A DNA stretch of 19,939 nt, taken from the NCBI GenBank assembly GCA_938048505.1, contig CALIUX010000149.1, forward strand, positions 1 to 19,939. The letters are read 5' to 3'. The notes under the pieces were generated by a model. It did no database searches, was not told the DNA's origin, and saw only the letters and a list, made by a program, of their open reading frames with translations. Positions 1 to 14,636 of the stretch are shown here, piece by piece. The DNA is from an uncultured Pseudomonadales bacterium. GTDB lineage: Bacteria; Pseudomonadota; Gammaproteobacteria; Pseudomonadales; Cellvibrionaceae. Positions within the stretch are counted from its first letter, which is position 1, and the number at the start of each line of letters is the position of its first letter. The position numbers and the translations under genes were made by a program.

Positions 1-1074
1 ACATCGTTGGTTGTATCGACTAGCTGGCGTTTTGAGCTGGGTATGTCCCGCAATGAAAACCGCTGGCATGGGGCGCAAGGCCGCTTAGTATTAGAGGGTG
101 GTGAAGCCGTGGCGGGCATGTTGTTTTTGACGAGTGATATAAAAGAAACAGACTCAGATGGCGATGCCGATCATTTGCACGAAGACTGGAGCCAGCCTCT
201 TCAACAGCTCGTAGATGGCGGGATGATTGAGGCTAGGATAACTGATGCGCAAGGTCGTTTTAATATTAATATGTTGAGTTTGGCGGAACAGTCAGTTCAG
301 CAACAACCGCAACAACCGCAACAACCGCAAAACCCTCATTGCCAAAACCAAGCAAATAAGCTGGACTTCGAATGCTATTTTACTGTGGCACAACGACGAT
401 TTATTCGTCTGCTCCAAGCTATTCCACTTAATGAAAGGCCGCTTGAAACTCAAGAGGCCATAGAAATTACTGAGGCTGTAATCGATTGGATGGATGAGGA
501 TCCCGGCGTGAGACAGCGAGGGGGCGCAGAGCAGAGTTATTATAATGGGTTAGAGGTGCCCATCGTTGTGCCGAATGCACCGATGACAAGCATCAGCGAG
601 CTATCACTTGTGAAGGGTGTTATGGAACGTCCTGAGTTGTACGAGAGGCTTTTGCCGCTTGTGATTGCGTTGCCGGCCGGCCATGATGCAGGCAGTGCTG
701 GGGTAGCACATTTGAATATTAATACGATGGATGCTCTTTTATTTAGTATTTTCAATGAAGAGAAGGAGCAAAGACCATTAGATCCAGATCAAATTAATGA
801 GTTGATAAACATTAGAAATGAAAGTCTTAATAGAGAAGAAAAGCGCGGTTTACAAAGCGTTCAGGATTTTTTTGATGAGGCGTTTCAAGGCCCTTTAGTT
901 AATATCAATCGACAAAACTTTAATACAGAACAGCTAGATACAAAAACTCAGTATTTTATCTATTCTGCCAACGTTACAATTGGCGATAAAACACGCCGAG
1001 GCAAGTCACTGCTACACCGCAAGCCTTCAGGTGGTGCAGTGACTACTGTGTGGCGTACAGACGCAAATTTTTAA
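1..1074 (+). CDS. gspK: Type II secretion minor pseudopilin GspK (5' end cut by window edge)
   Basis: The reading frame is open from base 1, so the true start and the prepilin signal/N-terminal helix lie outside the window. What remains is the periplasmic globular part of GspK, the large minor pseudopilin that caps the tip of the type II secretion pseudopilus together with GspI and GspJ. Family marks are the segment around 475-540 (VIDWMDED, then a GAEQSYY-like stretch), the helix-hairpin-helix-like LNINTMDALL at about 712-741, and a C-terminal stretch ending in VWRTDANF. A Gln/Pro low-complexity tract at about 295-335, built of three 9-base caacaaccg units, sits in a probable loop. gspL, gspM and gspN follow in the order usual for gsp operons, which supports the call. 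Identification is firm; only the missing 5' part is uncertain. Confidence 0.93.
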   Translation, partial: TSLVVSTSWRFELGMSRNENRWHGAQGRLVLEGGEAVAGMLFLTSDIKETDSDGDADHLHEDWSQPLQQLVDGGMIEARITDAQGRFNINMLSLAEQSVQQQPQQPQQPQNPHCQNQANKLDFECYFTVAQRRFIRLLQAIPLNERPLETQEAIEITEAVIDWMDEDPGVRQRGGAEQSYYNGLEVPIVVPNAPMTSISELSLVKGVMERPELYERLLPLVIALPAGHDAGSAGVAHLNINTMDALLFSIFNEEKEQRPLDPDQINELINIRNESLNREEKRGLQSVQDFFDEAFQGPLVNINRQNFNTEQLDTKTQYFIYSANVTIGDKTRRGKSLLHRKPSGGAVTTVWRTDANF

Positions 1075-1153
1075 ACGATTTTGATGTCTAGATGTCGATT
1101 ATATGTAAAATTATATACCGTTATCTAGGCATTACACAAAAACAGGTGAGACA
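1075..1153 (+). other. gspK-gspL spacer with imperfect hairpin
   Basis: This 79-base gap is the only sizeable space in the gsp block. It can fold into a nested hairpin: an outer CTAGAT (1088-1093) pairs with ATCTAG (1123-1128), and an inner TATAT (1100-1104) pairs with ATATA (1113-1117). There is no T-run after it, so it is not a standard intrinsic terminator. It may affect mRNA stability or be neutral AT-rich spacer. The gspL ribosome site (caggtgaga) follows at about 1143-1151. Confidence 0.35.
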
Positions 1154-2380
1154 GTGGCAGAACGCATACTGGTACGCAAAATTGAGCCCGGACTATGGCA
1201 GTGGCGCCTCGTTACGGCGCAGCATGAGTGGCTTAACGAATCATTTTATACGGGTGATATTAACCTCTTAAAAGAATCCATTGAGGGTAAGTCGTGTTGG
1301 CTTATTTTAGATGGGCGCGATGTGGGTACTCAAACAGTTGATGTGGGGGTTAAAGATCGTAAGCTTCTGCCGAAACTTGTGCCTTTTGAGCTTGAAGATA
1401 GCCTAGTCACGCCAGTTGAAGATCTTGTTTTTGCCTACGGTCCTCTCGTTGAGGGCAACGTTAATGCTTCTTATGTGAACGAAGACTACGCTCGCCAAGC
1501 GATTGAAGAACTTGAAGAGCTTGGTGCAGATGTGCAATGCACCATTTGCGATTATTTGGAGCTAGACTCTGGTCAAGGTTGGATCTTCCTTCTGGATGAA
1601 GACACACTATTTGTGAATCAAGGTGAGGGTACGGGCCTTCGTTGTGATGCGGATAATGGTGAAATGTTTATTCGTGCATTATTCCCAGAAGATGAGACTT
1701 TTTCAGAGTCATTTCCCTCAACACTGCACTTAGTAGCCGATGCTGAGGAAAACCAAGCCAAATTAAGATCGTGGCTGCCTCAAGCAGTTGAGACCAATGA
1801 AGAGCTGACTATAGTCGAGCAAGAGGGTGGTTTTTGGGATGTTGTTAAACTCAACGTCAAACCCAATATCGATTTCAGAACCGGTGATCTTGCAAGACAG
1901 TTACCGTTTGCACAATGGTGGACTGATTGGAAAATTCCGGCCATTGCCGCTGCAGCAGCTTTTGTTATTGCATTGGGTACAACTTGGGCAGAGTGGAATC
2001 ATGCTAAGCAAGACTCTAAACAGCTGTTTGCAGATCGTGATGCCGTATTTCGTCAAGTTGTGCCATCAGGCTCAATCAGTGATCCGGTTCGCCAGCTTAA
2101 GTCAAAACTCGTAAAGTCTGAAACCACCGAGCCATCTAACGTTGTGTATTTGATGTCTAAAATCGTGCCTCAAATACGGGGAAATGACAATTTCACCATG
2201 ACGAGCTTTCGCTACACGCACAGTAATGGTTCTTTGCAGTTCAATGTTGAAGCAAAAGACTTTGCTCAACTGGAAGCACTACGAGGCAAAATTAGCGAAG
2301 CGGGCTTATCGGCTGAAATAAAAAGCTCAAAAGCGTCAGGCGATATTCATCAGGCGCAGATTCGCGTTTCAGAGAGTTAA
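1154..2380 (+). CDS. gspL: Type II secretion inner-membrane protein GspL
   Basis: GspL is the bitopic inner-membrane platform protein of the type II secretion system. Its cytoplasmic actin-like-fold domain holds the GspE ATPase at the membrane, and its periplasmic ferredoxin-like domain pairs with GspM. The 408-residue length is normal for the family. The sequence shows a long acidic cytoplasmic region (about residues 1-260), one hydrophobic segment at about 262-280 (IPAIAAAAAFVIALG), then a coiled linker and a small periplasmic domain to the end. The start is GTG, with a purine-rich site (aggtgaga) just upstream; no earlier in-frame start fits better. Only three bases separate it from gspM, so the two are surely co-transcribed. 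I see no missing parts. Confidence 0.92.
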   Translation: MAERILVRKIEPGLWQWRLVTAQHEWLNESFYTGDINLLKESIEGKSCWLILDGRDVGTQTVDVGVKDRKLLPKLVPFELEDSLVTPVEDLVFAYGPLVEGNVNASYVNEDYARQAIEELEELGADVQCTICDYLELDSGQGWIFLLDEDTLFVNQGEGTGLRCDADNGEMFIRALFPEDETFSESFPSTLHLVADAEENQAKLRSWLPQAVETNEELTIVEQEGGFWDVVKLNVKPNIDFRTGDLARQLPFAQWWTDWKIPAIAAAAAFVIALGTTWAEWNHAKQDSKQLFADRDAVFRQVVPSGSISDPVRQLKSKLVKSETTEPSNVVYLMSKIVPQIRGNDNFTMTSFRYTHSNGSLQFNVEAKDFAQLEALRGKISEAGLSAEIKSSKASGDIHQAQIRVSES

Positions 2381-2383
2381 CCC

Positions 2384-2860
2384 ATGAATGAATTGAAAGA
2401 TCGATTTTTACAGCTTTCGCCTCGCGAGCAGCTTTCTTTAGGCATACTTTTTGTTGCCGTCACGCTGACGCTTTTGTATGTATTGTTATTGGCGCCTATT
2501 GCTAAAAAACGTGATAAGCAGTTGGTTAATAATAAAGCCGTTGCAACTCAGCATATGGAAGTTCGGCAGTTAGCATCAGAAGTATTAGGCCAGCAAAAGG
2601 CGGGTGGCCGTGGCCAGGCGAGCTTGGCGCAAGTCACAAATAATAGTTTGGGCAATCATGGCTTACGTATGGAAGATTTTAACCCTAGCGGCAATAGTAA
2701 TGCTCGGGTTCGATTAGCAAACGTTGAGTATAACAAGGTGATGGCTTGGCTCGATGAGCTTGAAAATAAAGAAGGCATACAAGTCAAAGAGGTCTCTGTA
2801 ACCGCAGGTGATGTCAAAGGTGTACTTGCGACCGTTATGGTTAAGTTATATAGGAATTAA
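2384..2860 (+). CDS. gspM: Type II secretion inner-membrane protein GspM
   Basis: GspM is a small bitopic protein that partners GspL in the type II secretion inner-membrane platform. The 158-residue length is typical. It begins with a short cytoplasmic tail whose motif LSPREQLSLG is characteristic of GspM, then a membrane segment at about residues 18-40 (ILFVAVTLTLLYVLLLAP). A coiled linker and a ferredoxin-like periplasmic domain follow to the C-terminus. It lies 3 bases after gspL and 3 bases before gspN, so translation is probably coupled along the run. Sequence conservation of GspM is low in general, so the call rests on length, topology, the N-terminal motif and position. Confidence 0.9.
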   Translation: MNELKDRFLQLSPREQLSLGILFVAVTLTLLYVLLLAPIAKKRDKQLVNNKAVATQHMEVRQLASEVLGQQKAGGRGQASLAQVTNNSLGNHGLRMEDFNPSGNSNARVRLANVEYNKVMAWLDELENKEGIQVKEVSVTAGDVKGVLATVMVKLYRN

Positions 2861-2863
2861 ACA

Positions 2864-3628
2864 ATGACTAAACTGCTTAAAGTGATCCTTGGTATAGGTT
2901 TGGTCTTGTATCTCTTTGTATTGATCATCAAAGAAACGCCTGCCACATTGATTACCTCTCCGTTGGCTAAGGCTCTCCCGCAATTACAGTTAGCTGCTGT
3001 CACAGGCACTATCTGGGAAGGTAAAGCCGGCGATGCGGTAGTTATGATTCAAAACAATCCCCTTCCTCTTGGTGCATTGAAGTGGAAGTTTAAGCCGATG
3101 TCTTTACTTGCGCTTAAAGCCTGCGCCGATGTTGAAAGTAGTGTATTTTCAGGTAATGCGTGCCGTACGTTGACAGGTATGAATCAATTGCATCGCTTTC
3201 AGGCTGATTTGCCGGCCGCATTAGCCAATGATTTTATTCCTCAAGCCGAGGTGGCTGGTGCAGCAAGTTTAGGGTTGGTTGAGGCAGCTTTTAATAATAA
3301 AGCTGAAGTGAGTAAGTTAAAGGGTAATTTGAGCTGGCGTGGTGCCCGCGTGAAGTTTCAAGGTACTTGGTTTACGTTAGGAGACCTTGCTGCTGATCTT
3401 AAAGAAGCTGAAGGCGGTGCGCTAGCGGCCCATATATTTGATTTATCGGGTCCGTTCGGTATTGATGTCAATGCCAAGGCTGGCCTTGCTATTGCACCCA
3501 GTTTAGTGGGTGATATTACACCGCGTGAGAATGCACCTGCTGCCATTACAGACGGACTCAGCCTTATCGCGATTCCTCAAGATAATGGCGCGTTACGGGT
3601 GACATACCCACTTGGCGGTAGCAATTAA
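2864..3628 (+). CDS. gspN: Type II secretion protein GspN
   Basis: GspN is an accessory type II secretion component that occurs in only part of the family; its exact role is not settled. This 254-residue protein has an N-terminal membrane segment at about residues 5-24 followed by an extracytoplasmic domain. The family signature right after the membrane (LPQLQLAAVTGTIWEGKAG, about residues 39-57) is present, and the protein ends in a short strand YPLGG. It starts 3 bases after gspM and is the last gsp gene here. No terminator is visible in the 26-44 bases before the apbE-type gene, so read-through into that gene is likely. Confidence 0.88.
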   Translation: MTKLLKVILGIGLVLYLFVLIIKETPATLITSPLAKALPQLQLAAVTGTIWEGKAGDAVVMIQNNPLPLGALKWKFKPMSLLALKACADVESSVFSGNACRTLTGMNQLHRFQADLPAALANDFIPQAEVAGAASLGLVEAAFNNKAEVSKLKGNLSWRGARVKFQGTWFTLGDLAADLKEAEGGALAAHIFDLSGPFGIDVNAKAGLAIAPSLVGDITPRENAPAAITDGLSLIAIPQDNGALRVTYPLGGSN

Positions 3629-3672
3629 GCTAGAAGGCTGAGACTGATGTCGTTATGGCGGGAGGCCTTATA

Positions 3673-4692
3673 GTGCATTGTAAGCTTTTACATTACAGGG
3701 TCTTGATGCTTTTTGTGATGGCGCTGTTGGGTTTTTTACCGTGTGCTCATGCGGCATGGTTTGAAAAAAGTGCCCCTATCATGGGGACCCGTGTCTATGT
3801 GAATGTGTGGCATAAGGATGAAAAGCTTGCACAGGCAGCCATCGAACATGTATTTGAAGTTATGCGAGGTGTGGATGCTCGCCTGTCTCCATACAAGCCC
3901 GATTCTGACTTGTCACGCCTTAATCGGGTGGCTGCAAAACGCCCAGTTGTATTAACCCGTGAACTTTTGCTTTTACTCGAAAAATCTCAGTGGGCTTACG
4001 GTGTCACTGATGGGGCTTTTGATATCACTTTTGCATCTGTTGGCCGGCTTTATGATTATCGTGAAAAGCGCCTCCCTTCTCCTGAGCAAATCCAACAATT
4101 ACTTCCCGCACTTTCTACTGCCCATTTAGCATTTGATAAAGCGCACAATACGCTAAGGTTTCTGCACCCAGAGGTCGCCCTTGATTTGGGGGGTATCGCA
4201 AAAGGCTATGCCGTTGACTTGGCCATTGAGGCACTTAAAAAACGTGGTATTCAGCATGCCTATGTGAGTGCAGGTGGTGATAGTCGTGCGTTGGGCAATC
4301 GAGGTGATAGACCCTGGTTGATTGGTATTAAGCATCCCAGGCCATCAAAGGCCCTTGGTGAAGCCGGTACAGTGATAACACTGCCTGTCGATAATCTTTC
4401 GGTAAGTACTTCGGGTGATTATGAGCGTTTTTTTATTGATGAAAAAAGCGGTGATCGTATTCATCATATAATCAACCCTAAAACAGGTGCGAGTGCGAGT
4501 GGCGTTATGAGCGTGACGGTTATTGGTCCAGAGGGCTTAACAACAGACCCACTGTCAACGGCAATATTTGTTTTGGGTGTCGCAAAAGGCCTCAAATTAA
4601 TTCATAGCATTGCACATTATGATGCCATCATTCTCGATTCGACTGGCCAAGTACACTATAGCAATGGTTTAATGCCGCCAGACGAGTCATAG
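3673..4692 (+). CDS. apbE: ApbE-family FAD:protein FMN transferase
   Basis: This is a periplasmic flavin transferase of the ApbE family. The family uses FAD to attach FMN covalently to a threonine of target flavoproteins such as NqrB/NqrC or RnfG/RnfD. No such target lies in this window. Motifs seen are MGTRVYV near the mature N-terminus, LSPYKPDSDLSRLN, DLGGIAKGYA (DNA 4183-4212), SAGGDSRALG (from 4267), STSGDYERFF, HHIINPKTG, and the metal-binding TTDPLSTAIFVLG near the end. I prefer the GTG start at 3673 over the in-frame ATG at 3655. A good ribosome site (gggagg, 3660-3665) lies 7 bases before the GTG but inside the longer reading frame. The protein then opens with an export signal ending ...PCAHA. 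It follows gspN closely, and a link to secretion is not implied by known biology. Confidence 0.9.
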   Translation: MHCKLLHYRVLMLFVMALLGFLPCAHAAWFEKSAPIMGTRVYVNVWHKDEKLAQAAIEHVFEVMRGVDARLSPYKPDSDLSRLNRVAAKRPVVLTRELLLLLEKSQWAYGVTDGAFDITFASVGRLYDYREKRLPSPEQIQQLLPALSTAHLAFDKAHNTLRFLHPEVALDLGGIAKGYAVDLAIEALKKRGIQHAYVSAGGDSRALGNRGDRPWLIGIKHPRPSKALGEAGTVITLPVDNLSVSTSGDYERFFIDEKSGDRIHHIINPKTGASASGVMSVTVIGPEGLTTDPLSTAIFVLGVAKGLKLIHSIAHYDAIILDSTGQVHYSNGLMPPDES

Positions 4693-5079
4693 ATCGATAG
4701 ATGTCGGTTCAATAGAGCGCCTTAGTCTATAGTATTGGATGATGTTGGCTGTTGATTAGCAAAAAAATAGCCAGTATCGTAAGGTAACACTTTGATCTGT
4801 TAACAAAAAAGGTAATAATAACCTGATACACAAGGATTCAGCGTCGATCGGTTAAAAGGCCTCTTCGCTGCTCTTTCTATCATTGTTATTTTTACTGAGT
4901 ACAATTTGCTCTATTATATTGTCGATAAGACAATAATGAGTGTGAAGTACCTGATGAACTAGCGTGTGAGTTAGTTGATAATGATGTGAATTAGCGCGTA
5001 TGCCTGTGCAGCATTAGATTGCGATTAGGTTAGGTATCCTTCATATTCTATTGTGAGCCGTTGTCTAAGGGAGACACTC
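4693..5079 (+). promoter_or_regulatory. Gene-free regulatory stretch before the nine-gene operon
   Basis: About 390 bases without a credible gene separate apbE from the operon. Two weak promoter candidates are visible: TTGATC (4792-4797), 16 bases, AATAAT (4814-4819); and TTTACT (4891-4896), 18 bases, TATATT (4915-4920). Three dyads overlap or flank them: TAACA-N8-TGTTA (4785-4802), AGGT-N7-ACCT (4810-4824) and the perfect 7-5-7 palindrome TATTGTC-GATAA-GACAATA (4917-4935). No convincing terminator for apbE is seen. The regulator and the real start site are unknown. Confidence 0.35.
4917..4935. promoter_or_regulatory. Perfect 7-5-7 palindrome, possible operator
   Basis: TATTGTC-GATAA-GACAATA is a perfect inverted repeat with a 5-base centre. 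It overlaps the -10 box (TATATT, 4915-4920) of the better-placed promoter candidate before the nine-gene operon, which is where a repressor would bind. There is no following T-run, so a terminator is unlikely. The operator role is an inference from position and symmetry only. Confidence 0.3.
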
Positions 5080-5739
5080 TTGCTAAACGCCAAAAAAAGC
5101 AGCAGTCTTATTTTGACTGCCTTGTTATGTTGTTATTCTTCATTATCGGTTTATGCTCAAGATGAGTTGACGCAAGAAGAGGGCCGTAATGCCCTGAGCC
5201 AAATCGAAGGTGGTGGCAATATCGAGATGCCAGATGGCTCTACGCTTCGTAAGGAAAACGAAACAGCCTTTATTGAGCGTGATGAAAATGCATCGCCTCT
5301 TAGTGAGCAAGTAGAAGACCTCAAAAAAGCAGCACTGGAGCTCAATCGTGACTTGCTTATCCTAGAAGAAGATCTGTTATTTCCAGCCAACACACAAATC
5401 ATGGTCTATATCTCTATGGATGTTGGTGAATACTTTTCAATGGATGCAGTACGCCTCATGATTGACGGCGAGATGGTTGCAACGCACCTTTATACTGAAA
5501 AGCAAAATAGTGCTCTTATTCGTGGAGGCATTCAACGCCTATACTTGGGTAACCTTAAAACGGGTGAGCATGAAATCACGGCTATTTTTCACGGCTATGG
5601 CCCCGGTGGCAGAGAGTATAAGCGCGGTGCTTCACTCACAATTGAAAAAGATCAATCGCCGACGTTACTAGAGATCAAAGTGCGTGATTCTGTGCGCAAA
5701 ATGCAGCCTACTTTCCAGTTTAAAAAGTGGAACCTATGA
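5080..5739 (+). CDS. Secreted protein of unknown family, first gene of the Agl/Glt-like operon
   Basis: I do not recognise a named family. From the TTG start the protein is 219 residues with a textbook export signal: a basic start (LNAKKSS), a hydrophobic core (LILTALLCCYSSLS) and cleavage after VYA before QDE. A charged, probably helical stretch follows (EQVEDLKKAALELNRDLLILEEDLL, given here by its position at mature residues about 60-90). The C-terminal half is rich in predicted beta strands (VRLMIDGEMVATHLY; HEITAIFHGYGPGG), suggesting a small periplasmic beta domain. I choose TTG 5080 over the in-frame GTG 5053 because a strong ribosome site, aagggag (5067-5073), sits 6 bases before it and the signal peptide then begins at once. 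Its stop overlaps the next start by four bases (ATGA), tying it to the operon. Confidence 0.8.
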   Translation: MLNAKKSSSLILTALLCCYSSLSVYAQDELTQEEGRNALSQIEGGGNIEMPDGSTLRKENETAFIERDENASPLSEQVEDLKKAALELNRDLLILEEDLLFPANTQIMVYISMDVGEYFSMDAVRLMIDGEMVATHLYTEKQNSALIRGGIQRLYLGNLKTGEHEITAIFHGYGPGGREYKRGASLTIEKDQSPTLLEIKVRDSVRKMQPTFQFKKWNL

Positions 5740-7595
5740 CCTGTCGTGACCTTAGGTCGACGCTTTTTTTTGTTGTTTTTTTCGTTTGCGGATCTTTTGC
5801 TGTATCTGCTGATACTCGAGAAGAACCCCTCACGGAGGTCGCTGACCTGCGTTATGGCGTTGCCCTGTACCACTATTATCAAAACCAACACTTCCAAGCC
5901 TTAAGTGATCTACTTGTTGCAGAGGAACGTGGTGGTATACAAGGACATGGCGATAACCCTGAAATAATGCTCGGTGGTTTTTATCTTGCCTATGGATTAG
6001 ATCGAACGGCTAGTGATATCTTTGAACGCTTGCTTGATAATAATCGCCCACAAAAAACCCGTGATGCCGCATGGCTTTATTTAGCTAAAATTCGTTATTT
6101 ACGTAACGATTGGCAGGCTGTGCAAGAAGCATTAGGCCGCATTAGCGAAAAGCCAAGCCCTAAAATTCTGGATCACATGAAAGTGCTCAGCGCGAATGTC
6201 GCTATTAAGCAAGATCGCACAGAGGATGCCAAGGAATTGGTTGATGATTTCGACCCGAACAACGAATGGGCACCTTACCTATATTTTAATATGGCATCGC
6301 TGCTTGCACGAGAAGGCAACCATACACTAGCTGTGCATTACTATGCTCGTATTGCACGTATGAAGCAGCGTACAGAGGCTCACCTAAGCCTATACGATAA
6401 AGCGATGACTGCGGCGGGCTTTGCGCATTTATTTGATGAAGATCCAGTGCAAGCCATTGCGTACTTTAAGCAAGTTAGGCTCGATAGCCCCATGTCTGGG
6501 CGTGCATTGCTGGGTTATGGTTGGGCTCAGACTGAAAGTGGCCGTTATCGCGAGGCACTGTCTCCTTGGCAAGCATTGGCTAAACGTTCATTAATCGATG
6601 ACAATACACAAGAAGCGATGGTCGCCATCCCCTATGCGTATGAGAAACTAGGCCTTGCCTCAGCCGCATTGAACATGTATCGCGAGGCTGAAGCCGGTTT
6701 TGAATCAGAGTTGGTCACTGTTGATAGCTTTATTAACAGTATGAACGGCAAAGCGATGTTGGATGCGTTAAAAATTGATCCTTCTGAAAATGTTAATTGG
6801 CTAAACTACGCCAGAGAAAATCAACTATCGCCACAGCTTTCTTACTTGACAACGTTATTTGCGAAAGACAGTTTTCAAGGGGTAACTCAGGAGCTGCGTG
6901 ACTTATTAGTGCTTCAAAACAAGTTAACTGATTGGCGTTCTCGAATGGACTTTTATTACGCAATGCTTGATGAGCGTGATGCAAACCGTAAGCGTGAAAT
7001 GGATTTGATTGCCAAGCAAGAAGCGTTTCAACTACTTGATGATATGAATCAAAAGCGCAAAGAGATCCTTGCTGAGCTTAACCAGCTTGAAGCCGATGAT
7101 AATTTTTTATCCATGCTTCGTGGTAAAGATCGCGAACGTCTAAAGCGTATTGTTCGAGCCGAAAACAATATTAAGGCGCTTGAAGCTGCAGGGCGTGATG
7201 TAACGGAAGAGCGGCGTAAGGTCATCAAGCTGCGAGGCCTATTATTATGGGACGCTGGCGAATTGTTTGCTGAACGTATGTGGCGAGCACGTAAAACCCT
7301 TGAAGAGCTTGAAGACCATCTTAAAAAGACGCTTGATACACAGCTGCATGTACAAAGCATTGTTGATGAGGGCTTTGACTTAGAGCCCTATCGCGTGCGC
7401 ATTCAGGCGTCTAACCAGCGTATTGATGCGCAGCTTGCTGATATTGATCAAGCTATCAATGCTGCACAAGAAATGCTGCGTAGCGAGGTAACTAATGTCT
7501 TGCAAGAGCAGCGTGGGCGCATCAGTTATTACTTGGCGCAGAGTCGTTTGGGTATTGCGCGTTTGCTCGATGATGCCAATGAGGAGGCATTCTAA
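5736..7595 (+). CDS. Secreted TPR/coiled-coil protein, Agl/Glt-like operon
   Basis: This roughly 619-residue protein starts with an export signal (hydrophobic core FFVVFFVCGSFAV, cleavage probably after SA). The first half holds helical repeats of tetratricopeptide type, for example the stretches beginning YGVALYHYYQNQHFQAL, AWLYLAKIRYLRNDWQAV, YFNMASLLAREGNHTLAV and LLGYGWAQTESGRYREAL. From about residue 415 to 560 it becomes long charged helices likely to form a coiled coil (KREMDLIAKQEAFQLLDDMN; RKVIKLRGLLLWDAGEL). It ends in a conserved-looking RISYYLAQSRLGIARLLDD. The ATG at 5736 overlaps the previous stop as ATGA, which favours it over the GTG at 5727. No lipobox is seen, so I infer a periplasmic protein and probable scaffold. 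TPR proteins of this kind accompany Agl/Glt-type motors; exact orthology is not shown. Confidence 0.82.
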   Translation: MTCRDLRSTLFFVVFFVCGSFAVSADTREEPLTEVADLRYGVALYHYYQNQHFQALSDLLVAEERGGIQGHGDNPEIMLGGFYLAYGLDRTASDIFERLLDNNRPQKTRDAAWLYLAKIRYLRNDWQAVQEALGRISEKPSPKILDHMKVLSANVAIKQDRTEDAKELVDDFDPNNEWAPYLYFNMASLLAREGNHTLAVHYYARIARMKQRTEAHLSLYDKAMTAAGFAHLFDEDPVQAIAYFKQVRLDSPMSGRALLGYGWAQTESGRYREALSPWQALAKRSLIDDNTQEAMVAIPYAYEKLGLASAALNMYREAEAGFESELVTVDSFINSMNGKAMLDALKIDPSENVNWLNYARENQLSPQLSYLTTLFAKDSFQGVTQELRDLLVLQNKLTDWRSRMDFYYAMLDERDANRKREMDLIAKQEAFQLLDDMNQKRKEILAELNQLEADDNFLSMLRGKDRERLKRIVRAENNIKALEAAGRDVTEERRKVIKLRGLLLWDAGELFAERMWRARKTLEELEDHLKKTLDTQLHVQSIVDEGFDLEPYRVRIQASNQRIDAQLADIDQAINAAQEMLRSEVTNVLQEQRGRISYYLAQSRLGIARLLDDANEEAF

Positions 7596-10549
7596 TGGCG
7601 CGAATTACTCTATCTAGTTTGCCATTACCTAGTGTCTTGTTGGTTGTGCTTGTTGCTACCTTAAGTGGTTGCAGTTCTTTCAATCGTGAAATCAGTGATT
7701 TAGGGCCGACACTCGCTGATTTGCCTGAAGCAGACATCCCGCAAACCATTGAGCCTGTTGCGCAAGTATCACGCAGAGAAATTGAAGAAATGTATCGCTC
7801 GGCATTAGCTGTTGCAGAAGACCCTAAAATGCAGCAACAGATTCGTATTCGTTTGGCGGATATCGAAATGTCGCGCAGTGAAGATGCGCAAATTGCTAGC
7901 GAAGAAGGCGGCACTTTTTTTGGCTCAACAATTGGTATGTATGATGAGCTAATTGCTTTGCAGAAAGCCCAAGAGGGCGTAGTGGATGAGCGGTTGCTTT
8001 ATCGCGTATCCAAGGCGTATGCATTAGATACACGCTTAGCAGAATCAGACGAGGCCTTAGCTGAGTTAGTGGCGCAAAACCCTGAATCAGGTTTTGCAGC
8101 AGAAGCACTATTTCGCCGTGCTGAATTAGCCTTCTCAAAAGAAAATTACTCAACAGCCTACGATTTTTATAGTGAGGTGGTTGAGTTTGGTGAAGAGACG
8201 CCTTTTTACCTTAATGCGATTTATATGCAGGGTTGGTCGCAATTTAAGATGGACAAGTACCACTTGGCGCTTGAACCTTTTGGCTCTGTTTTAGATAAGA
8301 TCTTACCAGAAGGCCGCACAATGGATGCGCTAGCGCCTTCGCAACAAAACTTACTGGCTGACACGCTTAAAGTCACGGGGTTTTCACTGTCTTACATGGA
8401 AGGCGCTGATTCGATTGCTGAAATGGCCGATACTCGCGGTGAAAGACATTATCAGCATTTGCTGTATCGCCAGTTAGGCGATTTATATCTTGATAAAAAC
8501 AGGTATCGTGATGCTGCAGATACTTATGCAGCCTTTATTGAGCGTTACCCTAATAGTGATTACAACCCTGAGCTGTCCGATAAAACGATTGATGTATACC
8601 TCAAAGGCAATTTCCCCAATGATATTTTGCCAGCCAAAGAGCAATATATTCAGCGATTCGGTATACACAGCTCATATTGGCAAACTCGCTCGCCTGAGCA
8701 GCGTGCAACCTATTCGAGTACGCTAGCCACTTACTTGGATGAAGTCTCTAGTTATTATCACTCTGAGGCTCAGGTCTTAGCGAGTGCTCAAACGGTTAAG
8801 CCTGCCAAAGGTAAACAACCGGATGCGCCGGAGCCGTACTTCCTTAAAGCGGCCAATTACTACGAAGAAATCCTTCAAACCTTTAACGAAGAAGAGCGCA
8901 AGTCAGAGCTCACGTTCTTAATGGCAGAGGCGTTTAACGATGCAGGCCAAGCGCAAAAAGCGGTTACAGGTTACGAAAAAGTGGCTTATCAGTTCAAGGA
9001 CCCTGAGCGCGGTGCGACAGCTGGTTATGCTGCGATTCTGGCTTTAGACTCACTCATTGAACAAGCTGCAGAACAAGGTGTGGCCCCACTACCAGCAACA
9101 GTTGAAGACACATCACCCGAGAGTGAGGGTGAACAGAGTGTTGCGCAAACGGTAGAGAGCTCAGCCAAATCACCGTTAACATCATTAGAACAGCACAGAA
9201 TGAACAGTGCGATTTTGTTTGCTGACAATTACCCTAATGACGAACGTGCAGTGTCCGTGCTAACGAATGCGGCAGAGCGAGCTTATACAGCGGGTAACCG
9301 TGAAAAAGCACAGGAGTTGGCGATACGCTTGACGCAATGGCAGCCCGCACCGCCCAAGCCGCTACAAAAAACCGCATGGTTAGTGTTAGCGCACAGTCAG
9401 TTTGAATCAAATCAGTTTGTAGAGGCCGAAGAATCTTACCGTCATGTTTTAACACTTCTTGATGTTAATGATACAGACCGTAAAGCTGTTACCGACCGCA
9501 TTGCTGCAAGTATGTATAAGCTAGCTGAGCAAGAGATTGCGAATAATGCAAAATCTCAAGCTGTTAACCGCCTGTTGCTGATCTCGGAAGTGGCGCCAGG
9601 CAGTGAGTTGGCTATCAATGCGCAATATGATGCGGCAAGTCATTTAATCCAGATGGAAGATTGGAGTCGAGCGGAACGTGTGCTGGTTGATTTTCAGCGA
9701 AATTTCCCAACAAACCCGCTCACCAAAACACTACCGGCTAAGCTGGCAGTTGTATATCAGGAGTTAAAAGACTGGGATAAAGCTGCCGAGCAGCTTGCAA
9801 TCATGTCCAGTGGGGATGCCGACCCTGAAACGCGTCGCAGCGCGTTATACCTTTCTGCAGAGCTCTATCAAAAATCAGGCAATACGCCTTTGGCTGAGCA
9901 AACTTATAAAGATTATATTCGCCGTTATCCTCAGCCATTCGATTTGGCGCTCGAGGCCCATGTCCAAATACGCGATATGGCGAAAGAGCGTGGTGCGATG
10001 GGTGAATACGAGTCGCAATTGAGAGGCCTTGTTAAGCTCGATAGCTCAGCCGGCAGTGATCGCACAGAGCGTTCTACGTATCTTGCAGCAGAGTCTTTGA
10101 GTTACTTTGCAGAGCAAGATCTTAAAGCGTTCGAACGTATTCAGTTACGCGCACCTATTCGAAAAACACTAAAAGCAAAGCGTAAAGCGATGGATAAAAC
10201 GCTTTCAAGTTACAAGCAAGTGATTGACTATGGTGTTGCAGACTTTGCGACAGAAGCTAATCATCGGATCGGTGAAGTGTATTCTAATCTCTATAATGAG
10301 TTGCTGGATTCAGAGCGGCCGGGTGGTTTGGATGAGCTAACCTTAGAACAATATGAAATCATGTTAGAAGAGCAGGCTGATCCCTTCAAGGGTAAGGCTG
10401 TTGAAATGCTCACCATTAATGCCGAGCGTTCGTGGGATGGGTTTTATGATCAATGGGTGAAAGCAAGTTTTACAGCACTTGCCAAACTCCTCCCTGCTCG
10501 ATATGGCAAAGAAGAAGTGGTTGTTGAGGTGAGTCGTGGTGTGCATTAA
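7595..10549 (+). CDS. Large multi-TPR outer-membrane lipoprotein, Agl/Glt-like operon
   Basis: This 984-residue protein has a lipoprotein signal with lipobox LSGC (Cys26) followed by Ser, which predicts outer-membrane sorting by the usual Lol rule. Nearly the whole length is helical repeats of TPR type, such as LYRQLGDLYLDKNRYRDAAD (about residue 289), AEALFRRAELAFSKENYSTA, AWLVLAHSQFESNQFVEAEE and ALYLSAELYQKSGNTPLAEQ. A Ser/Glu/Pro-rich low-complexity linker at about residues 495-530 splits it into two arrays. The start ATG overlaps the preceding stop by one base (TAATG) and has a strong ribosome site, gaggagg (7581-7587). The role is inferred: an outer-membrane scaffold that could receive motion from the TonB-like arm encoded at the operon end. 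GltD/GltE of Myxococcus are large TPR envelope proteins of similar type, but I cannot assign orthology. Confidence 0.85.
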   Translation: MARITLSSLPLPSVLLVVLVATLSGCSSFNREISDLGPTLADLPEADIPQTIEPVAQVSRREIEEMYRSALAVAEDPKMQQQIRIRLADIEMSRSEDAQIASEEGGTFFGSTIGMYDELIALQKAQEGVVDERLLYRVSKAYALDTRLAESDEALAELVAQNPESGFAAEALFRRAELAFSKENYSTAYDFYSEVVEFGEETPFYLNAIYMQGWSQFKMDKYHLALEPFGSVLDKILPEGRTMDALAPSQQNLLADTLKVTGFSLSYMEGADSIAEMADTRGERHYQHLLYRQLGDLYLDKNRYRDAADTYAAFIERYPNSDYNPELSDKTIDVYLKGNFPNDILPAKEQYIQRFGIHSSYWQTRSPEQRATYSSTLATYLDEVSSYYHSEAQVLASAQTVKPAKGKQPDAPEPYFLKAANYYEEILQTFNEEERKSELTFLMAEAFNDAGQAQKAVTGYEKVAYQFKDPERGATAGYAAILALDSLIEQAAEQGVAPLPATVEDTSPESEGEQSVAQTVESSAKSPLTSLEQHRMNSAILFADNYPNDERAVSVLTNAAERAYTAGNREKAQELAIRLTQWQPAPPKPLQKTAWLVLAHSQFESNQFVEAEESYRHVLTLLDVNDTDRKAVTDRIAASMYKLAEQEIANNAKSQAVNRLLLISEVAPGSELAINAQYDAASHLIQMEDWSRAERVLVDFQRNFPTNPLTKTLPAKLAVVYQELKDWDKAAEQLAIMSSGDADPETRRSALYLSAELYQKSGNTPLAEQTYKDYIRRYPQPFDLALEAHVQIRDMAKERGAMGEYESQLRGLVKLDSSAGSDRTERSTYLAAESLSYFAEQDLKAFERIQLRAPIRKTLKAKRKAMDKTLSSYKQVIDYGVADFATEANHRIGEVYSNLYNELLDSERPGGLDELTLEQYEIMLEEQADPFKGKAVEMLTINAERSWDGFYDQWVKASFTALAKLLPARYGKEEVVVEVSRGVH

Positions 10550-11339
10550 TTTTCGTTATGGCGGTTTATTCCTTCTCTTTTTTGCACTGGTTTTGAGTGG
10601 CTGTACAACCTCACCAAGAAAAAGTGTTGAGGAAGACGATAATACGCGTGAACTGGATGCTGAATTGACAGCTGCCTTACAAGATGAGTCTTTTACACCT
10701 TCCCCAGACCCTTACCTTCAGCAAGCTACTGCAGTCGATGTCAGTATCAAGCAAGCCTTTGACGATGCCTTGCTTGTTATGCAACAACAGGATTGGCCTC
10801 AAGCAGAGCGTCAGCTTATGGCGATTGCACAATCTGCACCGACGCTTTCGGGGCCATGGGTTAACATTGGATTATGCCGCTGGCGTCAGGATCAAATTGA
10901 TGGTGCAAAGGAGGCGTTTGAGCAAGCTATTCAGCTTAATGCGCTTAATGGCGATGCCTATAATACCTACGCAGTACTTGCTAGAGAGCAGGGTGAATTC
11001 ACTCAAGCAGAAGCGCTTTATCAAAAGGCCCTCATAGCCTGGCCTCATAATGAAACAAGCCATCGAAATTTAGGCGTTTTGTACGATATGTATATGGGGC
11101 GCTTGGATGATGCACTCAAGCATTTTGAAATGAGCGCCAAGATTAATGGCAACCCCGATAAAAAGCTCAGGGGTTGGATCATCGATATTAAGCGGCGCCA
11201 AGCCAAGGCAGCAAAAGAAAAACCTGCAGCACCTAAACCGAAGGCTGAACCGCAGCAAGTCGAACAAAATGACGCGCCAGAATCAGGCTCGTCAGCAGCT
11301 GAAGGTACCCAGTCATCTTCGGAGGAGGGCGAACCATGA
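10539..11339 (+). CDS. TPR lipoprotein, Agl/Glt-like operon
   Basis: A lipoprotein of about 266 residues with lipobox LSGC (Cys22 from this start) followed by Thr, so outer-membrane anchoring is expected. Three adjacent TPR units are clear: WVNIGLCRWRQDQIDGAKEA, DAYNTYAVLAREQGEFTQAE and HRNLGVLYDMYMGRLDDALK. The C-terminal 60 residues are a Lys/Pro/Ala then Ser/Glu-rich low-complexity tail. Two adjacent GTG codons (10536 and 10539) can start it. The ribosome site gaggtga (10526-10532) is better spaced for 10539, but 10536 cannot be excluded. The gene overlaps the end of the 984-residue gene by 11-14 bases, so translation is coupled. GltE (AglT) of Myxococcus is a TPR lipoprotein in the comparable machine; the match here is by type only. 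Confidence 0.83.
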   Translation: MCINFRYGGLFLLFFALVLSGCTTSPRKSVEEDDNTRELDAELTAALQDESFTPSPDPYLQQATAVDVSIKQAFDDALLVMQQQDWPQAERQLMAIAQSAPTLSGPWVNIGLCRWRQDQIDGAKEAFEQAIQLNALNGDAYNTYAVLAREQGEFTQAEALYQKALIAWPHNETSHRNLGVLYDMYMGRLDDALKHFEMSAKINGNPDKKLRGWIIDIKRRQAKAAKEKPAAPKPKAEPQQVEQNDAPESGSSAAEGTQSSSEEGEP

Positions 11340-11659
11340 AGTTCTTATCTACGCTATGTTGGATAACTATTGGCTCAAGTGCTGTTTTTTCGAGTGTACA
11401 AGCCCAAACTGAACAGCCTACTCAAGGCAATGTTGTAACGCTAAGTACAACGGTTAAAGGTAATCAAGAGCACCCAAGTGTCACGTATATCGTGCCTTGG
11501 CGCCAGGCAGCAGCCGAAGATTCAGTCAATGTCTCTTTCAATTCACGTTCTCGCTTGGGAGATGTGTTTGAACATGTCGAACGATCAGAGCATGAACGGC
11601 AAGTCGAATTTCTTGTTCAAATGGAATCGGCAGGTCAGCAAGCACCTGCAGACCAATAA
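11336..11659 (+). CDS. Small secreted protein of unknown family, Agl/Glt-like operon
   Basis: A 107-residue protein that I do not recognise. It has an export signal (MKFLSTLCWITIGSSAVFSS, cleavage after VQA) and a mature part of about 83 residues. The mature part includes a likely beta stretch (HPSVTYIVPWRQAA; DSVNVSFNSRS) and a helical acidic end (VFEHVERSEHERQVEFLVQM). The start is well supported by a strong ribosome site, ggaggag (11321-11327), and an ATGA overlap with the preceding gene. Position between the TPR lipoproteins and the ExbB-like gene suggests a periplasmic accessory subunit of the same machine; this is inference from position. Confidence 0.72.
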   Translation: MKFLSTLCWITIGSSAVFSSVQAQTEQPTQGNVVTLSTTVKGNQEHPSVTYIVPWRQAAAEDSVNVSFNSRSRLGDVFEHVERSEHERQVEFLVQMESAGQQAPADQ

Positions 11660-11752
11660 TAATTAATAAAAACGAATGATGTTAAGTCATTAATCCTCAT
11701 TTAAATCAACTTAAAACGTGTTACTTATACAACGCATTGCGGAGAAATAAAA
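11660..11752 (+). other. Internal operon spacer with dyads before the motor genes
   Basis: A 93-base AT-rich gap divides the envelope-protein genes from the motor genes. It holds short inverted repeats, AATGA-N7-TCATT near 11674-11691 and TTAAGT with ACTTAA further on, but no T-run, so it is not an obvious terminator. An internal promoter is possible; I see no convincing -35/-10 pair. The ribosome site GGAG (11741-11744) lies 8 bases before the ATG at 11753. Confidence 0.3.
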
Positions 11753-12430
11753 ATGTTAGATACTGCGATTGGCTTTTTTCAAAACGGTGGGCCTTTTATG
11801 TACCCAATTGGCTTGGTTTTGGTTATAGGTCTTGCGGTGGCGCTAGAACGCTTCATTTTTTTAACAGTAGCCAGAGGATCAAATCGTAGAGCGTTTGATC
11901 GCATGTTACCGCTATTGAAGAAAAAGGATTTTAACGGTGTTGTTGAAGTTGCACGCAGCTCACAAGCTCCTGTTGGTCGAATTATTGCTGCTGGCCTTGC
12001 TCGCATGCAACAAACTCCGCGTCGAGAAGAAATCGAGTACGCAATGGAAGAGGGCGTGATGGAAGCGGTTCCACGTTTAGAAAAACGCACTCCTTACATT
12101 GCAACTTTGGCCAATATTGCCACGCTACTGGGTCTATTGGGTACCATTATGGGCTTAATTGCGGCCTTTACTGCAGTAGCAGAAGCTGACCCTTCAGAAA
12201 AAGCGACGCTATTATCACAAAGTATTTCCGTTGCGATGAACACTACAGCATTTGGTTTGATGGCTGCTATTCCATTGTTGTTATTGCATACGGCTATTCA
12301 AAATAAAACCAATGAAATTATTGATAGCCTCGAAATGGCCGGTGTGAAGTGCCTTAACATCTTATCGATGTCTTCGTTGTCTGCCGGTGGTGCTAAGCCT
12401 CAAGGACAGACAAAGAGCCCTTCAGCATAA
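11753..12430 (+). CDS. MotA/TolQ/ExbB-family proton channel subunit (AglR-like)
   Basis: This 225-residue inner-membrane protein has the ExbB/TolQ layout: a first membrane helix (about residues 16-38), a cytoplasmic loop, then two helices (about 115-139 and 157-180). The family core is clear in LLGLLGTIMGLIAAF and SVAMNTTAFGLMAAIP. By eye alignment with E. coli ExbB, Thr148 and Thr181 correspond to T131 and T165, both kept, while the membrane Glu176 corresponds to V160. Such proteins form a pentameric ring around ExbD-type subunits and turn proton flow into movement. Two ExbD-like genes and a TonB-like gene follow, the same composition as the AglR/AglQ/AglS motor of Myxococcus. It could also be called TolQ-like, but the tol genes are absent here. 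Confidence 0.93.
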   Translation: MLDTAIGFFQNGGPFMYPIGLVLVIGLAVALERFIFLTVARGSNRRAFDRMLPLLKKKDFNGVVEVARSSQAPVGRIIAAGLARMQQTPRREEIEYAMEEGVMEAVPRLEKRTPYIATLANIATLLGLLGTIMGLIAAFTAVAEADPSEKATLLSQSISVAMNTTAFGLMAAIPLLLLHTAIQNKTNEIIDSLEMAGVKCLNILSMSSLSAGGAKPQGQTKSPSA

Positions 12431-12449
12431 TTATTAGGCCATATTTCAC

Positions 12450-13037
12450 ATGAGAATCAGAAGACGTCAGACGGAAGAGGCAGATCTTGATATCACCTCT
12501 TTCATGAATCTGATGATCATCCTTGTGCCCGTATTGTTGATGAGCATGGTGTTTTCCCATATCACCGTACTGGATCTTAAATTACCGGATTTAGCACCAA
12601 ATAGTGCTGATGAAAACCCGGAAAAAAACGATGCGCTCGAGGTGGTCATTCACGATGACAAAATCGTGGTTAATTATCCTGCTGGAGCACCATTGAAAAC
12701 GCTGGCAAAGCGTGACGGTGAGTATGACTTCAAGTTATTGTCCGATGTGTTGCAAGAAGTGAAGCGACAGCTTGCCGATAAAGATAAAGAAAAGCGTGAT
12801 ATTTTTATTTTGTCTCAGCCTGATACAGATTACCAAACCATTGTTACCACTATGGATACGGTTCGATCTTATAAAGCGGTTGTTGCTGCATCGGTTGTTA
12901 ATGCCGAACTTTTCCCCGAAATTTCTTTGGGTGATGCACCTCAGCCTTTAGAGGGTAGTGAAGCCGGTAGTGCCCTTGGTGTCGACGGATCTGAAGCCGA
13001 GCCCGCAGCACAAGCAGGGGAGGGAGCAACACAATGA
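12450..13037 (+). CDS. ExbD/TolR-family protein, first of two, lacking the membrane Asp
   Basis: A 195-residue bitopic protein: a short basic cytoplasmic start (RIRRRQ), one membrane helix at about residues 17-37, and a periplasmic ExbD-type domain. The segment DITSFMNLMIILVPVLLM aligns with the E. coli ExbD membrane region in which Asp25 is essential for proton use. Here the residue at that position is Asn20. Otherwise the fold marks are normal (LDLKLPD after the membrane; DIFILSQPDTDYQTIVTTMD). It carries an acidic Ala/Gly/Glu-rich tail after about residue 165. It follows the ExbB-like gene by 19 bases, with only a weak ribosome site (ttagg), and overlaps the second ExbD gene by ATGA. It may be a structural half of a heterodimer rather than an active proton carrier (inference). 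Confidence 0.9.
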   Translation: MRIRRRQTEEADLDITSFMNLMIILVPVLLMSMVFSHITVLDLKLPDLAPNSADENPEKNDALEVVIHDDKIVVNYPAGAPLKTLAKRDGEYDFKLLSDVLQEVKRQLADKDKEKRDIFILSQPDTDYQTIVTTMDTVRSYKAVVAASVVNAELFPEISLGDAPQPLEGSEAGSALGVDGSEAEPAAQAGEGATQ

Positions 13038-13552
13038 AACAATCTCTCCGCGCTAAGCGTATGGCAAGGTTACACCGTCGCCACAACTCACAACCCAAGC
13101 TTAATCTTGTATCCTTGATGGATATTTTTACTATTTTGGTTTTTTTCTTGTTGGTTAATTCTTCTGATGTAGAAGTTTTACAAAACAATAAAGCAATCAA
13201 ATTGCCAGAATCGATTGCTGATCAAAAGCCCGACAACATGTTGGTTGTTATGGTCAGTGCTGAGAATATTATTATCTCAGGTCGTTCTGTCGTATCGGTA
13301 GATCAAGCGTTGAGCGGTGAAGATGATGAAATTGCACCGCTCAAAAAAGAGTTGGAGTACCTTGCATCCAGAAAACCATTTGCAAATGAGCTTGAGGCCA
13401 AAAAAGGGCGTGATGTCACCATTATGGGTGATAATACGATTCCGTATACGCTAATTAAGCGCATCATGACAACCTGTGCTGAGGCTGACTACCGCAATAT
13501 TTCCCTCGCTGTGAGCAAAATTGCTAATACAGCAGAAGAGGGGGTGCAATGA
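13034..13552 (+). CDS. ExbD/TolR-family protein, second of two, with membrane Asp
   Basis: A 172-residue bitopic protein with a very basic cytoplasmic start (KQSLRAKRMARLHRRHN), a membrane helix at about residues 25-43 and a periplasmic ExbD-type domain. The segment LNLVSLMDIFTILVFFLLV places Asp30 exactly where the proton-carrying aspartate of ExbD/TolR lies. This subunit is therefore the likely proton-active partner of the preceding ExbD-like protein. The periplasmic domain includes VTIMGDNTIPYTLIKRIMTT, the usual ExbD C-terminal helix and strand. The gene overlaps both neighbours by four bases (ATGA), which argues for strict co-production in fixed ratio. In Myxococcus the comparable pair is AglQ and AglS; which one this matches cannot be said by eye. 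Confidence 0.91.
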   Translation: MKQSLRAKRMARLHRRHNSQPKLNLVSLMDIFTILVFFLLVNSSDVEVLQNNKAIKLPESIADQKPDNMLVVMVSAENIIISGRSVVSVDQALSGEDDEIAPLKKELEYLASRKPFANELEAKKGRDVTIMGDNTIPYTLIKRIMTTCAEADYRNISLAVSKIANTAEEGVQ

Positions 13553-14571
13553 ATCATAACAAACTCATTCTTGCACCTAATCTTGCGTTACCTTGGTCGA
13601 GTGGTATAGAAGACAATAAACGCTATTGGAAAATATTTTTTAGTTTTCTGATTCCGTTTTTGATTATTGGTTATGTGATTGCTCAGATTAATTTACCTGA
13701 GAAAACACGTGAAGAGCGAGCCAAGTTGCCACCACAGCTTGCGCGGGTTGTACTTGAGAAAAAAGAACTTCCCAAGCCCCCGCCTCCTAAACCTAAGCCA
13801 AAGAAAAAAGAACCACCTAAAGAAGAAAAACCAAAAGATAAGCCCAAGCCTGAGCCAAAACCTGAACCCAAGCCTGAGCCAAAACCAGAACCTAAGCCCA
13901 AGCCTGAACCTAAGCCTCCTAAAAAGGCACCGGACCCTGTGAAGTTGCAGCAAGCAAAAGAGCGCGCCCAGCAAATCGTGCAGCAAACTTTTGCAGATGA
14001 CTTGAGTGCAATGCGCGATGCATTGGATGTAAGTGATGTGAGAACGCAGCAGGTTACAAGGGCACAGGGTAAAGCTGCGGCGGTCGATCGAAGCCTAGTC
14101 TCGAGTGGCGCACAGGCCTTGAGTGGTGGTGTCAATACTGCAGCATTAAGTACAGATACCGGTGGCGTGGCACTTTCTGGCCGTGAAACGACCGCTGTAA
14201 CCAGCAAGCTTGAGAATGTGAGTAAGGTTGCACAAGCTGAGCGAGCACGTGAGTCTCAAGCGCAAGCAGCAGGGGTAAAGGCGTCGCGTAGCAAAGTGGC
14301 TATGAATCAATCGATTGACGCTAATAAAGCGAGTATTTTTGGTTTATATCAACGCGCTCTTGATGAAGACCCTACCTTAGAAGGTAAGGTCGTCTTTGAG
14401 TTGGTGATTGAGCCGAATGGGCGTGTATCATCGGTTAAGATTGTTTCTAGTGATTTAGGTGATAAAAAGCTAGAGCGCAAACTGAAAGCCCGCTTGAGGT
14501 CGATCAATTTTGGTCCTGAGGATGTTCAGCGCACTACTCTCAGGCATACCTTCAATTTCTTGCCTTATTAG
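13549..14571 (+). CDS. TonB-like linker protein with AgmX/PglI-type C-terminal domain
   Basis: This 340-residue protein has a short cytoplasmic start, one membrane helix at about residues 26-47 and a Pro/Lys/Glu-rich arm at about residues 70-130 built on PKPE repeats. A Gln/Ala/Ser-rich middle follows, then a TonB-like C-terminal domain. The last 80 residues begin with SIFGLYQRALDEDPTLEGKV, then VFELVIEPNGRVSSVKIVSS, and end HTFNFLPY; this is the pattern of the AgmX/PglI C-terminal domain. The rigid arm would span the periplasm and pass motor motion to outer-membrane partners. The Ser-x3-His motif of the classical TonB membrane helix is absent. It is the last gene of the operon, overlaps the second ExbD gene by ATGA, and is followed by an intrinsic terminator. 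A role in siderophore uptake is not supported by neighbours. Confidence 0.9.
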   Translation: MNHNKLILAPNLALPWSSGIEDNKRYWKIFFSFLIPFLIIGYVIAQINLPEKTREERAKLPPQLARVVLEKKELPKPPPPKPKPKKKEPPKEEKPKDKPKPEPKPEPKPEPKPEPKPKPEPKPPKKAPDPVKLQQAKERAQQIVQQTFADDLSAMRDALDVSDVRTQQVTRAQGKAAAVDRSLVSSGAQALSGGVNTAALSTDTGGVALSGRETTAVTSKLENVSKVAQAERARESQAQAAGVKASRSKVAMNQSIDANKASIFGLYQRALDEDPTLEGKVVFELVIEPNGRVSSVKIVSSDLGDKKLERKLKARLRSINFGPEDVQRTTLRHTFNFLPY

Positions 14572-14599: not shown

Positions 14600-14636
14600 A
14601 AAGCCCTCATTGCAATCGTAATGGGGGCTTTTTTTT
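14600..14636 (+). terminator. Intrinsic terminator of the nine-gene operon
   Basis: AAGCCCTCATT (14601-14611) pairs with AATGGGGGCTT (14620-14630), giving an 11-base-pair stem with one G-T wobble and an 8-base loop. A run of eight T (14629-14636) follows at once. It lies 29 bases after the last stop codon of the operon and has the normal layout of a Rho-independent terminator. Confidence 0.92.

Follow-up and report, generated by a model that had tools for sequence, protein, structure and literature searches.

Luciano and colleagues described in 2011 an Agl-Glt "core complex", in which gltC, gltD, gltE, and gltG together with aglR, aglQ, and aglS occupy a single gammaproteobacterial region that also contains an extra gene and had no known function; the core was judged insufficient for gliding, which is undocumented in most carriers (PMC3169522). 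A 2013 paper presented the core as a standalone seven-protein system (PMC3858216). The nine-gene cluster described here (g1 to g9) lies in a 19,939-nucleotide stretch (hereafter the window) of contig CALIUX010000149.1 from an uncultured Pseudomonadales bacterium of the Cellvibrionaceae (assembly GCA_938048505.1). The core-complex gene set is found in this cluster: like the core complex of the 2 papers, it combines an AglR-like protein, 2 ExbD-like proteins (g7 and g8, designated D1 and D2), a GltG-like TonB protein, and 3 TPR proteins with a candidate extra gene in one cluster. The cluster therefore belongs to an already described kind, since such a gammaproteobacterial set is presented in both sources. 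The first-pass annotation of the window had called it an Agl/Glt-like set and a related, lightly characterised machine. The kind and the relatedness hold, but g9 and g4 are far from being equivalogs of GltG (52.8 versus a cut-off of 650 bits) and GltE (39.3 versus 225 bits) in NCBIfam, and the FHA domain of Myxococcus GltG (PMC3169522) is absent from g9 in Pfam; with the set already in print as the core complex, the claim to a discovery is weaker. What goes beyond the print found, and was also absent from the first-pass annotation, is an Asn/Asp split between D1 and D2 and an outer-membrane/redox module near the cluster in many relatives; the annotation had also passed over an ApbE gene just upstream. 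On balance, we judge that the cluster probably encodes a force machine of the Agl-Glt core type, driven by protons and spanning the envelope, that would serve a redox-active outer-membrane complex.

The 9 genes are co-directional and mostly overlapping, as the first-pass annotation had described: 6 of the 8 junctions overlap (by 13, 1, 14, 4, 4, and 4 bases), the other 2 are gaps of 93 and 19 bases, and a terminator-like hairpin closes the operon. The gene order, whose conservation that annotation had proposed to check, recurs in relatives. Among 180 loci examined in three batches of 40, 60, and 80 (the last nearly all metagenome-assembled genomes), order and strand were kept in 112 of the 112 in which all 9 genes were detected, so that the conservation of the cluster is far beyond chance; the remaining 68 loci had contig-end breaks, an undetected gene, or genes lying apart. 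The g1 profile matched 86 of 370 sampled Gammaproteobacteria (own genome counted) and 67 of 273 genera, and a relatives search found g2 matches in 37 of 58 genomes, own genome and paralogues counted. In 3 loci (L109, L111, and L152), g1–g5 or g1–g3 occurred without motor genes, and a core-type AglR was found elsewhere in the genomes of these split loci (G229, G109, and G122). A few irregular listings were noted: neighbouring genes in a different order in L167 and L191, 2 of the remaining 68 loci (g9 before g8, g6 before g5), and g1 listed twice in the complete locus L215. A second core subtype (L056–L059 and several of L098–L110) has a g9 of about 455 residues that is greatly extended at the N-terminus, ahead of the transmembrane (TM) helix.

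Profile searches in Pfam and NCBIfam agreed with the annotated inventory of 5 exported proteins, 1 ExbB-like, 2 ExbD-like, and 1 TonB-like protein with an AgmX/PglI-type C-terminus. In Pfam, TPRs were matched in g2, g3, and g4, MotA_ExbB in g6, and ExbD in g7 and g8; the TonB_C match of g9 lay slightly under the cut-off (22.4 versus 24.6 bits). In NCBIfam, g9 matched the AgmX/PglI C-terminal domain NF033768 (64 bits, cut-off 40) and tonB_Cterm (27.3 bits, cut-off 27.1). The 20 best Foldseek PDB matches of g9 were all TonB/TolA-family C-terminal domains, with a best E of 2.2e-3 and none below 1e-3; the mean pLDDT of the g9 model was 69, and mostly 90–95 in its C-terminal domain. This TonB-like fold is what would favour a standard motor of Ton or Tol type that energises nutrient uptake, with which the cluster also shares the ExbB/TolQ and ExbD/TolR families. 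However, the g6 rows formed one clade with a Shimodaira–Hasegawa-like approximate likelihood ratio test support of 100 in a tree combining 39 core rows with 37 others of the MotA/TolQ/ExbB family, and D1 (42), D2 (42), and the others (57) were each separate at 98 in a 141-row ExbD tree. Both trees were built quickly and have many weakly supported inner branches, and the ExbB tree carries a long-branch warning. These own clades lie outside the Ton/Tol clades, as would be expected from the first-pass annotation. The cluster further differs from Ton and Tol-Pal motors in having 2 different ExbDs; no His occurs in the TM stretch of the window g9, nor in that of 148 of 160 rows; no TonB-dependent receptor (as already annotated), TolB, or Pal was found among the annotated window open reading frames (ORFs); and 5 further MotA_ExbB matches exist in the same genome. 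Because g6, D1, and D2 each form their own clades, the cluster is, on comparison of its proteins, neither a Ton nor a Tol unit, and the energiser reading, already disfavoured, is scarcely credible.

The residues of a 5:2 proton motor are present, with the axle Asp in D2 only. Ring residues Thr131 and Thr165 of g6 are kept in every scorable row (90 and 89 rows, respectively); these Thr residues and the axle Asp are what we take to be the proton path in 5:2 motors. At the key site, 165 D1 sequences (window counted) had Asn in 136, Asp in 29, and no other residue, whereas D2 had Asp in all 162 scorable rows once a single truncated row was excluded. An Asp-type query was used to draw the last 80 loci, which are therefore enriched in Asp; the D1 count up to that point was 85 Asn to 2 Asp. 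D1 Asn20 lines up with the ExbD Asp in the alignment used for a careful tree, and also in a weak PDB alignment. In that tree, built from hand-chosen rows (44 D1, 10 D2, and 17 others) with the trait column removed, Asp was present in 17 of the 17 other ExbD/TolR rows, and the Asn-type D1 formed one clade (support 98/90) with a single Asp-to-Asn change. The Asn was paired with Pro27 in 130 of the 136 rows, and Pro27 occurred in none of the 29 Asp rows. The total lack of other residues, the single-clade change, and the Pro27 coupling indicate that D1 is held at Asn and is not decaying. D1 and D2 occurred together in 162 loci, of 162 with D2 and 164 with D1. The 2 proteins would pair in a mixed axle that has only one protonatable site; alternatively, D2 could form like pairs with D1 as a partner. 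No paper reporting this ExbD asymmetry was found in a literature search judged by titles and abstract openings.

A second set of genes accompanies the machine in many relatives. Among 81 loci for which 1.5 kb or more of upstream sequence was available, this sequence carried a same-strand ApbE gene in 45, though not in every case right beside the cluster, a TlpA-like gene in 24, and GspN in 18; these loci are not independent of one another. In 20 further regions, the usual order was an HZS_alpha-like gene, an SH3/barrel protein, an OMP_myx_plus barrel, a TlpA-like thioredoxin, DUF4266, DUF3570, sometimes ApbE, and then g1; L340 and L347 were without some parts and L351 was cut by a contig end. 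The HZS_alpha-like protein is a propeller lipoprotein of about 900 residues with 2 or 3 CXXCH haem motifs, and the module counts 2 beta-barrels besides the DUF3570 barrel. Profile matches identified HZS_alpha and SH3 only in L334 and L344; elsewhere they were assigned by position and size, with an additional genome search for HZS_alpha. All 10 ORFs listed for the third position, including that of the own genome, scored above the OMP_myx_plus cut-off. In the genome of the window, the module lies on contig C42 (L334), where a GGDEF diguanylate cyclase gene (L334 6997-8334) follows DUF3570. Divergent arrangements have 3 extra genes separating the module from g1 (L338 2631-8034, with ORFs of similar size in L337, L339, and L353). 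In L338 these encode a 533-residue protein whose start is Tat-like, a LamG protein with 2 CXXCH motifs, and a 414-residue protein with 1 CXXCH motif.

Physical linkage ties the module to the machine. DUF3570 matches of 75–155 bits came, among the matches listed, from 60 genomes, 58 of which had g1. From 55 genomes picked by eye, 45 had DUF3570 and g1 on one contig: (i) on the same strand at most 1.6 kb upstream of g1 in 29 genomes out of the 370 sampled (within 530 bp in 25), and 4.3 kb upstream in one more; (ii) divergent to g1 in 13 (12 at 10.7–13.6 kb and one at 3.6 kb); and (iii) 23–31 kb downstream in 2. An HZS_alpha-like gene lay on the same strand at most 7 kb from a DUF3570 gene of 75–155 bits in 48 of the 51 genomes with both; in the genomes G229, G312, and G388 the 2 were on different contigs. 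Presence across genomes points the same way. In the 370 sampled genomes, g1 was found in 86, DUF3570 in 98, and both in 72 (Fisher p 6e-40); DUF4266 was found in 94 and together with g1 in 69, and HZS_alpha in 61 and together with g1 in 53. Counted by taxonomic family, with the families copied by hand and a family total estimated at 160–170, 39 families had g1 and DUF3570 (p about 1e-16). Within the family of the window, DUF3570 was present in 27 of 27 genomes scored with the core subtype of the window versus 1 of 9 others (G013).

Since the outer-membrane module accompanies the machine in many relatives, the machine would likely serve to move or gate a redox-active complex of the outer membrane, or to assemble it. 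In this arrangement, g6 would form an inner-membrane ring, g9 would span the cell wall as a TonB-like arm, and g1–g5 would build a periplasmic and outer-membrane scaffold; from these parts, transmission of force through the envelope is plausible. Several observations weigh against the service of a redox complex. In the window itself, the module parts other than ApbE are not adjacent; 14 of the 86 genomes with g1 are without any DUF3570; and family genomes with only the second core subtype (G006, G008, and G016) are without DUF3570. A control family, GspN, was present in 83 of the 86 g1 genomes versus 97 of the 284 others; GspN being equally tied to g1, co-occurrence by itself is confounded, and the argument rests on physical linkage and not on co-occurrence. 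The chemistry is also uncertain. A DUF3570 protein was shown to be flavinylated at [S/T]GA[S/T] (eLife 2021, PMC8238504), whereas the linked DUF3570 mostly carry S for G: the aligned site read D-x-x-[ST]-[SGT]-A-[ST] in 17 of 20, and the strict [ST]GA[ST] was found there in only 3 of 20, so that flavinylation of the linked DUF3570 is only possible. The own-genome DUF3570 has SGAS ten residues past the aligned site.

Other readings give the redox genes a lesser role. The cluster could handle a surface polymer or surface protein, or serve type II secreted proteins, with the redox genes as cargo or bystanders. The spore-coat polymer machine Nfs of Myxococcus is a precedent (PMC3858216), the cluster sits behind gspK-L-M-N and apbE, and the GspN control noted above is itself a type II secretion family; yet GspN was next door in only 18 of the 81 loci with enough upstream sequence, and polysaccharide genes were absent among the annotated window ORFs. 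We consider this reading unlikely. Distinctly unlikely, in our judgement, is that the module is a frequent neighbour through lifestyle or transfer and does not work with the machine. The strong association of the unrelated GspN shows that such confounding occurs, the module is unlinked in the genome of the window, its position in the 12 genomes with divergent arrangements at 10.7–13.6 kb is not adjacent, and 26 of the 284 genomes without g1 carry DUF3570. Nevertheless, DUF3570 stands upstream on the same strand in 29 genomes, presence matches closely across the 36 family genomes, and the association persists within the 180 GspN-positive genomes, where DUF3570 was found in 70 of 83 with g1 versus 15 of 97 without. 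The shared architecture and the OMP_myx_plus barrels of the linked module would also suit a gliding or surface-motility machine as in Myxococcus, a very unlikely reading given the verdict of Luciano 2011 on the core (PMC3169522).

The service of a redox-active outer-membrane complex by the core-type machine thus remains our preferred reading. A stronger form of it, which we advance only tentatively and doubt more than we believe, is that the Agl-Glt core and the ApbE/DUF3570-type cluster are one machine, whose one-sited (Asp/Asn) axle would drive or assemble a flavin- and haem-bearing outer-membrane redox complex.

The features of the locus are collected in Table 1. The start of g1 could alternatively be a GTG at 5053, and the lipobox-like starts of g3 and g4 were taken directly from the sequence. 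Both g1 and g5 are conserved among relatives and had zero matches in the Pfam scan. We propose g1 as a candidate for the "additional gene" of the Luciano 2011 core complex. In an alignment of 27 sequences of the g5 family, E45, P47, P54, and W55 are invariant; they fall in a short conserved motif around E-L-P-K and I-V-P-W-K, which may provide the TonB-like arm with a docking peptide. The 3' flank of the cluster encodes an aminotransferase, an HD-domain protein, an AbgT-family transporter, and an RF-1-domain protein.

Table 1. Features of the window in and around the nine-gene cluster
Feature	Position	Strand	Basis or remark
gspK, gspL, gspM, gspN (type II secretion), directly 5' of apbE	7-3628		
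ApbE, FAD:protein FMN transferase, upstream of cluster	3655..4692	+	Pfam ApbE 260 bits
g1, exported protein, coiled coil and beta sandwich	5080..5739	+	219 aa from TTG start
g2, exported TPR/coiled-coil protein, GltC position	5727..7595	+	TPR_19 above cut-off
g3, TPR lipoprotein, 984 aa, GltD position	7595..10549	+	many TPR matches; LSGC lipobox
g4, TPR lipoprotein, GltE position	10536..11339	+	TPR matches; LSGC lipobox
g5, small exported protein, conserved E-x-P and P-W motif	11336..11659	+	alignment of 27 sequences
g6, ExbB/AglR-like proton-channel subunit	11753..12430	+	MotA_ExbB 101.5 bits
g7 (D1), ExbD-like axle subunit without proton Asp	12450..13037	+	PF02472 43 bits
D1 codon 20, AAT = Asn replacing conserved Asp	12507..12509	+	codon read
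g8 (D2), ExbD-like axle subunit with proton Asp	13034..13552	+	PF02472 60.5 bits
D2 codon 30, GAT = Asp	13121..13123	+	codon read
g9, TonB-like force transducer with a single TM helix, a stretch rich in Pro, Lys, and Glu, and an AgmX/PglI C-terminal domain	13549..14571	+	NF033768 64 bits
Terminator-like hairpin closing operon	14600..14631	+	stem of 14 pairs followed by a T run

The 2011 description of the core complex gave it no function, yet g1 alone marks 86 of the 370 sampled genomes; our literature search, judged by titles and abstract openings, found no later functional study of it. The main text of the 2011 paper has no match to ApbE, flavin, thioredoxin, or DUF3570, and the parts of it drawn on here do not mention the Asn/Asp split (PMC3169522). 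The linked module thus offers candidate outer-membrane parts and a testable chemical function for a widespread orphan machine. Compared by published description, the Myxococcus Agl-Glt motor and Nfs likewise combine a motor with TonB-like and TPR envelope parts. By contrast, AglQ and AglS of Myxococcus both carry the Asp, and mixed versus like pairing was left open for them (PMC9389320), whereas D1 of the window is naturally D-to-N, a change that in AglQ (D28N) abolishes proton conductance (PMC3858216). The Asn/Asp pair, a natural motor whose 2 axle subunits are chemically unequal, therefore bears on that open question of mixed or like ExbD pairs. Clusters of ApbE, DUF3570, DUF4266, and thioredoxin have also been described before, in a paper whose main text mentions neither ExbB nor gliding (PMC8238504), and the literature search found no paper containing both DUF3570 and ExbB. 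The module reported here brings the same families together, and differs from those clusters in standing beside an envelope motor and in including HZS_alpha-like and OMP_myx_plus proteins.

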